A stretch of DNA of 64,000 bases from Halorhabdus rudnickae (GTDB lineage Archaea > Halobacteriota > Halobacteria > Halobacteriales > Haloarculaceae): the NCBI RefSeq assembly GCF_900880625.1, contig NZ_CAAHFB010000001.1, positions 2,170,001 through 2,234,000 of the forward strand, given 5' to 3'. Position 1 is the stretch's first letter. The number at the start of each line of letters is the position of its first letter. This document shows, piece after piece, positions 49,002 through 49,538 of this stretch. The position numbers and the translations under genes are program-made. The notes beneath the pieces were generated by a model, which saw only the letters and a program-made list of their open reading frames with translations, ran no database searches and was not told where the DNA came from.

Positions 49002-49075
49002 GGGCCGGTAGCTCAGTCAGGCAGAGCGTCTGGCTTTTAACCAGACGGTCATGGGTTCAATTCCCATCCGGCCCG
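49002..49075 (+). tRNA. tRNA-Lys (anticodon TTT)
   Basis: A complete 74-base cloverleaf with acceptor arms GGGCCGG (49002-49008) and CCGGCCC (49068-49074), D-arm GCTC...GAGC, anticodon stem TCTGG/CCAGA with loop CTTTTAA, and T-arm ATGGG-TTCAATT-CCCAT. CCA is not encoded. The anticodon TTT reads Lys codons. Its 3' end is repeated three more times downstream. Confidence 0.96.
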
Positions 49076-49538
49076 CTCTCGTGGCGCTCGCAAATCGCGA
49101 GCGCCTGCTGTGCGTTGCCGGTGGGAATTGAATCAGAGAGTGGGAGGTGAGCGAGCGGTGCGAGGTCGCGAAGCGACCTCGAAAAGCCGAACGGCGTAGC
49201 CGTGAGGTAGCGAGCGAACGGGAACGACCGTGGTTCAATTCCCATCCGGCCCGTAGCATTTTGCTGCGAGCAATTCGCGAGCAACAAATGCGCGACGATG
49301 GGAATTGAAGCCGGGAAGTCGCAGCCCCGGAAACGCAGCGAACAATGTGAACGAGTATCCCGGAACGTCTTCACTCGGTTCAATTCCCCTCCGGCCCGTG
49401 AGACTTCTGCGAGCGTCAGCGAGCGCCTGCTGTGCGTGACCGATGAGAATTGAATCACGCGAGTTGCAGCCCGTGCAAGCGAGCACAGCGAGCCGAACCG
49501 GACCATCTCGCCATCGGGTTCAATTCCCATCCGGCCCG
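49053..49538 (+). repeat. Array of tRNA-Lys 3'-end copies
   Basis: The last 23 bases of tRNA-Lys (T-arm plus 3' acceptor strand, GTTCAATTCCCATCCGGCCC core) occur four times in the same orientation: 49053-49075 in the tRNA, then 49231-49253, 49376-49398 and 49516-49538, each with at most two mismatches. Each spacer holds an inverted T-arm (GGGAATTGAA-type) starting about 46 bases after the preceding copy, at 49123, 49298 and about 49445. Spacers 1 and 3 also share GCGAGCGCCTGCTGTGCG. Units are 178, 145 and 140 bases. The rest of the 5' tRNA half is absent, so these are not tRNA genes. Confidence 0.9.

Follow-up and report, generated by a model that had tools for sequence, protein, structure and literature searches.

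The DNA behind the tRNA-Lys gene of the Halorhabdus window studied here may well be a three-unit array belonging to a haloarchaea-wide family of small, non-coding DNA cassettes anchored at tRNA genes, a reading to which we give roughly even weight. The window is the whole 64-kb stretch that was analyzed (C1:2170001-2234000); the genome measures 3.36 Mb, and among named species Halorhabdus amylolytica and H. salina are closest to it.

Layout of the tRNA-Lys array and anatomy of the units

The 21-nt 3' end of tRNA-Lys, GTTCAATTCCCATCCGGCCCG, which runs from the T-loop to the last base, is present in four same-strand copies with start-to-start distances of 178, 145 and 140, exactly as given in a preliminary description of this DNA. 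These were the only matches in the 64 kb at up to three mismatches, and 100 shuffles returned none. The inverted T-arm reported some 46 bases into every spacer was likewise located by coordinates in all three cases, each arm starting 46 nt past the preceding direct copy (Table 1). The same description had suspected that the inverted copies form long hairpins, which is supported: the arm is a regular part of the unit, and the whole 462-nt array folds as single-stranded DNA with z = -4.25 relative to shuffles. Two of the five sub-hairpins in the window are strong (z of -5.5 and -4.4) and three are weak (z from -0.35 to -1.95). An open reading frame of 157 aa also crosses the whole array in antisense (49057-49530, minus strand), and is probably a by-product of the repeats.

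Table 1. Parts of the tRNA-Lys array, with positions counted from the first base of the window
Feature	Position	Strand	Remarks
tRNA-Lys(TTT) gene	49002-49076	+	ARAGORN
Master of the direct copies, tRNA positions 53-73	49055-49075	+	copy search
Unit 1, H1, post-tRNA hairpin ggcgctcgc-aaatc-gcgagcgcc	49076-49119	+	
Unit 1, inverted T-loop/T-stem arm 1, GGTGGGAATTGAA	49120-49132	-	
Unit 1, H2, class gtgggaggtgagcgag..., plus extra internal hairpin	49133-49232	+	fold z -4.4
Direct copy 1 of tRNA positions 53-73	49233-49253	+	
Unit 2, H1, GCATTTTGCTGCGA-gcaat-TCGCGAGCAACAAATGC	49254-49296	+	fold z -5.5
Unit 2, inverted arm 2, GATGGGAATTGAA	49297-49309	-	13/13 complementary to preceding direct copy
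Unit 2, H2	49310-49377	+	weak fold alone, z -1.0
Direct copy 2	49378-49398	+	1 mismatch to GTTCAATTCCCATCCGGCCCG
Unit 3, H1	49399-49441	+	weak fold, z -0.35
Unit 3, inverted arm 3, GATGAGAATTGAA	49442-49454	-	
Unit 3, H2, cacgcgagttgcag...catctcgccatcgg class	49455-49517	+	class common to other tRNA loci
Direct copy 3	49518-49538	+	distal array end

Units of this family are about 100-180 bp long and follow a fixed order: a first hairpin (H1), an inverted copy of the T-loop and T-stem of the host tRNA, a second hairpin (H2), and a direct copy of tRNA positions 53-73. Median values are 45 nt for H1 up to the inverted arm, 44.5 nt for the interior of H2 and 127 for the period. The sequence of the direct copies follows that of the local tRNA, with an identity of 0.90-0.99 at each of the positions 53-73, and the edges of this block, which coincide with G53 and the discriminator base, are sharp, as identity is only 0.70 at position 52, 0.34 at 51 and 0.50 at 74. 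Such edges would be expected from a crossover in the T-loop that is obliged to leave a working tRNA.

The inverted arm, which spans tRNA positions 54-65, also follows the local tRNA. Its absence from homologous arrays, a possibility raised at the outset, was not observed, as it was found in 142 of the 164 units at up to three mismatches in 11. Its match to the T-arm averages 9.67 of 12 for the own tRNA, compared to 8.34 for foreign tRNAs and 7.09 for shuffled spacer, and arm and tRNA covary at positions 57, 59, 62 and 63, which are variable. At position 59 the pairs are A-T (102), C-G (21) and T-A (13), and at position 62 they are C-G (94) and T-A (35). Covariation is also visible between orthologs: tRNA-Lys of Haloarcula has TTCAACT and its arm AGTTGAA, while tRNA-Met genes with CTACC or CCACC are followed by arms with TAG or TGG, respectively. 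Some units combine a foreign-looking inverted arm with a perfectly local direct copy, so that a target-site duplication fits these units as well as cassette insertion does. A second repeat family, CCACCTTTTT ... CTTGCAAAAA(G/T)CTGGACCAAAAA ... CTGCTCGC, was seen at some tRNA genes and array ends, downstream of tRNA-Ile, Pro, Met and Leu (loci L023, L049, L058, L245, L259 and L307).

Spread among tRNA genes and genomes

A BLAST search with the array, followed by a survey of tRNA genes, placed units behind 22 of the 42 tRNA genes of the window's own genome; two further Halorhabdus genomes have them behind 26 of 39 and 19 of 40. Moreover, all 22 tRNA-Lys orthologs, found through their upstream gene, are followed by one to three unit-like stretches, with one weak case in Halorussus (L106). 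The idea of a tRNA-derived repeat family, put forward for the Lys array alone, was thus supported. Identical unit numbers and sequences in distant genera, also contemplated beforehand, were not found, as both numbers and sequences differ.

Of 214 tRNA loci from haloarchaea, 108 have a 21-nt copy in the 400 nt that follow the gene, and none has one on the upstream side, which served as the control; since this sample was drawn partly from pattern matches, 108/214 is no unbiased prevalence, and the counts from the three genomes are the better guide. A strict pattern, GATTTGAA-N32-62-GTTCAAATC, matched in 47 of 59 relatives with no match for the backward control, and in a wider draw it was found in most genomes of the order Halobacteriales. 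Elsewhere in the phylum only a handful of 163 genomes match, mostly with single occurrences and near chance. Phage records returned no match, and none of the 80 viral-contig loci among the matches listed in the pattern scan has the hairpin tips described below, therefore these viral matches are probably due to chance. Plasmid records gave one match, a Natrinema replicon with one unit behind a tRNA-Glu-like stretch. This stretch (Natrinema thermotolerans CP031304, about 235.3 kb, L457) has an insertion near the anticodon, and is absent both from the ARAGORN calls and from the gene table of the record.

Hairpin tips, unit turnover and competing explanations

The tips of the hairpins are of a distinctive kind. 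Triloops have the form c(GNA)g (87 counted), and tetraloops the form c(GNNA)g with a pyrimidine mostly at the third loop position, so they are not GNRA loops. The 2x2 mismatches in the stems are tandem GA/GA on the tRNA-sense strand in 39 of 48 cases in H2 and 55 of 65 in H1. In DNA, hairpin loops of both forms, c(GNA)g and c(GNNA)g, have exceptional stability. H1 tips were found on the sense strand in 115 of 181 cases and on the other strand in 7, and in view of this one-sidedness the inverted arm probably does not serve to invert the hairpins between direct and inverted arms. Folded as DNA, H1 has a median z of -2.3 and the I-H2-D segment (inverted arm, H2 and direct copy) of -3.8, relative to mononucleotide shuffles. 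The fraction of G-U pairs, sense versus other strand, is 0.052 versus 0.070 in H1 and 0.044 versus 0.061 in I-H2-D, whereas the tRNA controls carry the RNA signature, with 0.078 versus 0.056. Tandem G-A pairs, GNA and GNNA loops and the lack of G-U enrichment together point to hairpins that act as folded single-stranded DNA rather than RNA, even though loop and mismatch counts indicate this and do not prove it, because the sequences are related and not independent. With 4 occurrences in the window versus 1.2 expected, the tip motif is just mildly enriched there and was dismissed as a general feature of the genome, and a K-turn reading of the tips was rejected by eye, since they have no 3-nt bulge.

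The same observations bear on the possibility that the units are structured RNA, that is, co-transcribed 3' trailers of the tRNA acting as RNA in the manner of RttR/RtT in E. coli. The hairpins do lie on the sense strand, where the energy computed with RNA parameters is also lower, and annotations of E. coli list RtT as an RNA. However, G-U pairs are not enriched on that strand as they are in the tRNA controls, the loops are GNA and GNNA outside the GNRA class, about half of the tRNA genes have no units, their presence varies between relatives, and no Rfam family matches the archaeal units. We thus regard an RNA function as improbable.

Our preferred explanation, for which confidence and doubt are about balanced, is that the units are mobile or exchangeable tRNA-anchored cassettes with a folded single-stranded DNA site. 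A cassette would enter at the T-loop (G53/T54), on the tRNA-proximal side, by site-specific recombination or single-strand transposition, and the tRNA would stay intact because the cassette brings or regenerates positions 53-73. As for the inverted arm, we infer that it would pair with the direct copy and close the folded hairpin I-H2-D, which a recombinase would then recognize as the integron integrase does folded attC. The enzyme could be a XerA-like recombinase, which is conserved in G003, G005, G006 and G132 (64-98% identity), or an element integrase. In the window's own genome, no clear intact copy of the XerA-like recombinase was found; short frames at a contig start (G000:C1:1457-1836) gave two weak Phage_integrase matches, which are possibly this genome's own XerA-like gene, broken or mis-assembled. 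A Y1 transposase is not needed in cis, as genome G005 has none and yet holds 38 units.

A rival reading is a non-autonomous transposon. Here, a transposase that prefers single strands, or a casposase-like Cas1, would leave a 21-bp target-site duplication at the 3' end of the tRNA, with the arm guiding it to the T-loop. In agreement with this, units whose inverted arm looks like that of another tRNA still have a local, and in many cases perfect, direct copy. Casposons insert in tandem close to the T-loop, in the 3' end of tRNA genes, and casposases target the T-loop segment and prefer single-stranded substrates (PMC9939771). In contrast to the archaeal units, casposons carry cas1 and polB and have terminal inverted repeats, and they duplicate about 15 bp on the downstream side of the T-loop segment (PMC9939771), whereas here the duplicated block is 21 bp, spans positions 53-73 and includes the T-loop. 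Together with the many units of G005 in the absence of Y1, these differences make a transposon of this kind an unlikely source.

The number of units per tRNA gene varies from 0 to 4, and once reaches 5; among orthologous tRNA-Met genes alone it ranges from 0 to 4. Gains and losses are seen between G005 and G006, two genomes of the same genus, although not every case is polarized by an outgroup. At tRNA-Gly(GCC), G005 has a single unit [A] and G006 has [X,A], where A has an identical H2 and 98% identity in H1; the extra unit X sits between the tRNA and A and is no copy of its neighbor. The converse is found at tRNA-Arg(CCG), with [X,A] in G005 and [A] in G006. New units thus seem, in the clearest cases, to be added on the tRNA-proximal side. 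In addition, of 56 arrays with at least two units, 32 have more decay in the last copy than in the first and 3 have less (p = 1e-6), a trend that gene conversion by the tRNA could produce as well. Units that share an array frequently have unrelated H1 and H2, while close relatives of their H2 are found at other tRNA loci, and H1 and H2 reassort among units between related species. Near tRNA-Gly(GCC) of the window's own genome, a strong Rfam match (69 bits) to the L4-Archaeoglobi ribosomal leader was also recorded (L032, 2121-2220).

Not all turnover has this character. Tandem duplication also occurs, as L091 has identical units, and the five-unit array behind tRNA-Ser(TGA) in L443 (G132:C1:704800-706800) contains a duplicated two-unit block. 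The array at tRNA-Gln(CTG) looks like the product of recombination between two inverted arms, so homologous or microhomology-based exchange may explain part of the turnover. These arrays, along with the fact that first copies are closer to the tRNA than last copies, would suit an account without special mobility, in which old tandem duplication, unequal crossing-over and gene conversion between tRNA and copies keep the arms matched. Nevertheless, such processes do not predict unrelated H1 and H2 within an array, relatives of H2 at other tRNA loci, or a Gly(GCC) unit X that differs from its neighbor, and we consider it quite unlikely that they suffice.

The 3' ends of tRNA genes are the usual att sites, which favored the initial suggestion that the copies are scars of ordinary integrative elements that entered the tRNA and then left; this is very improbable, because the units are uniform, each with the 21-nt block, inverted arm and conserved hairpins, and are spread order-wide at about half of the tRNA genes, and, as already argued in the preliminary description, simple att scars leave the regular inverted copy unexplained. 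Furthermore, the neighbors of the Lys array are genes for a DUF7119 protein and a HAD hydrolase, and not mobile genes or an integrase. When large elements ending in the 21-nt block were sought, the sole candidate followed, at C6:208582-221043 of the window's own genome (L353), turned out to be the product of ordinary integration, which had moved a tRNA-Val array out of place: a 34-nt tRNA remnant and two units lie about 11 kb away, inverted, beside a 333-aa tyrosine integrase. A true scar does exist there, but it consists of this 34-nt remnant and not of a 21-nt block.

Comparison with E. coli RtT and other known systems

In E. coli, tyrT is followed by 178-bp repeats that have been on record since about 1980, and we know of no accepted origin for them. 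In the K-12 loci compared (tyrT/tyrV, L458; argVYZQ, L464; proK, L466), three 178-bp repeats follow tyrV, each with an inverted GGGGAAGGAT inside and with an exact copy of the final 19 nt of tRNA-Tyr as its end; in the proK unit the corresponding parts are the tRNA-Pro end and GAGGAT, and in the argV spacer they are the tRNA-Arg end and GGGAGGAT. All full units carry a sense-strand tip GARC-N3-6-GYGA, mostly with a GNA or GNNA loop. The two groups are therefore alike in standing in tandem behind a tRNA gene, in ending each unit with the exact 3' end of the own tRNA, in an inverted T-stem arm that fits the local tRNA (tyr, pro and arg), in the tip GARC-(GNA or GNNA)-GYGA of most units, and in a presence that varies by strain; in E. 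coli strain SK1144 (L459), the second tRNA-Tyr has no array. On the other hand, the RtT copy starts near position 58, is 19 nt long and includes CCA, whereas the archaeal copy covers 53-73 without CCA; RtT is found at a few tRNA loci and the archaeal units at about half; and the core sequences are unrelated. The Rfam RtT model (RF00391) scored 101-137 bits on the tyr and pro controls and weakly, below the Rfam threshold, on arg, and gave no hit on Halorhabdus units, neither in six loci searched with E up to 5 nor in L018 with E up to 1.

The direct-inverted-direct plan is thus common to both domains, a statement on architecture that does not extend to sequence kinship, and we therefore regard the archaeal arrays as a variant of the RtT kind and not as members of RtT. 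The tyrT-type plan of E. coli thereby extends to a second domain, where it occurs on a far larger scale, and can be put as a rule: own-tRNA direct and inverted arms surround hairpins of single-strand type. Plan and rule make the origin of such repeats testable in genetically tractable haloarchaea. In its widest form, which we offer only tentatively, our proposal would be a single-strand recombination system that uses T-loops as fixed insertion points, with arrays at about half of haloarchaeal tRNA genes, cassettes required to match the host tRNA in their inverted arm, and E. coli tyrT/RtT as the bacterial counterpart.

Integron arrays are similar in that units are inserted at a fixed end, with the newest nearest the anchor, and this polar insertion is also a trait of the archaeal arrays. 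Integron attC boxes read GTTRRRY/RYYYAAC, whereas the archaeal box, GTTCRAATC, departs from this by the C at its fourth base. No integron integrase was seen beside the tRNA-Lys array among the XerA-like and element-type tyrosine recombinases examined. Unlike integron cassettes, the archaeal units have no gene cargo, are anchored at a tRNA gene and would likely fold on the tRNA-sense strand. The folded attC site, with an outer paired box, an unpaired spacer and a variable terminal hairpin, is comparable to the folded archaeal site (PMC2727003). Overall, the tRNA-anchored non-coding arrays would join CRISPR and integrons as polar arrays.

Haloarchaea are also home to PATEs and SMRs, non-coding mobile repeats of about 100 bp with palindromes, of which the mobilization of SMRs is unexplained (PMC3119063). 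They differ from the units described here in having no target duplication, no tie to tRNA genes and no own-tRNA arms; conversely, the 21-nt duplication and the absence of Y1 from G005 set our units apart from IS200/IS605 derivatives such as PATEs. In the open-access literature, no description of the archaeal arrays was found. Partial tRNAs adjoining full tRNAs have been recorded in Haloferax gibbonsii LR2-5, with no explanation offered (PMC7921747); that paper reports the tRNA remnant only, without the rest of the unit. These partial tRNAs are probably the same kind of copy, and the units may account for the unexplained 'partial tRNAs' of annotators.
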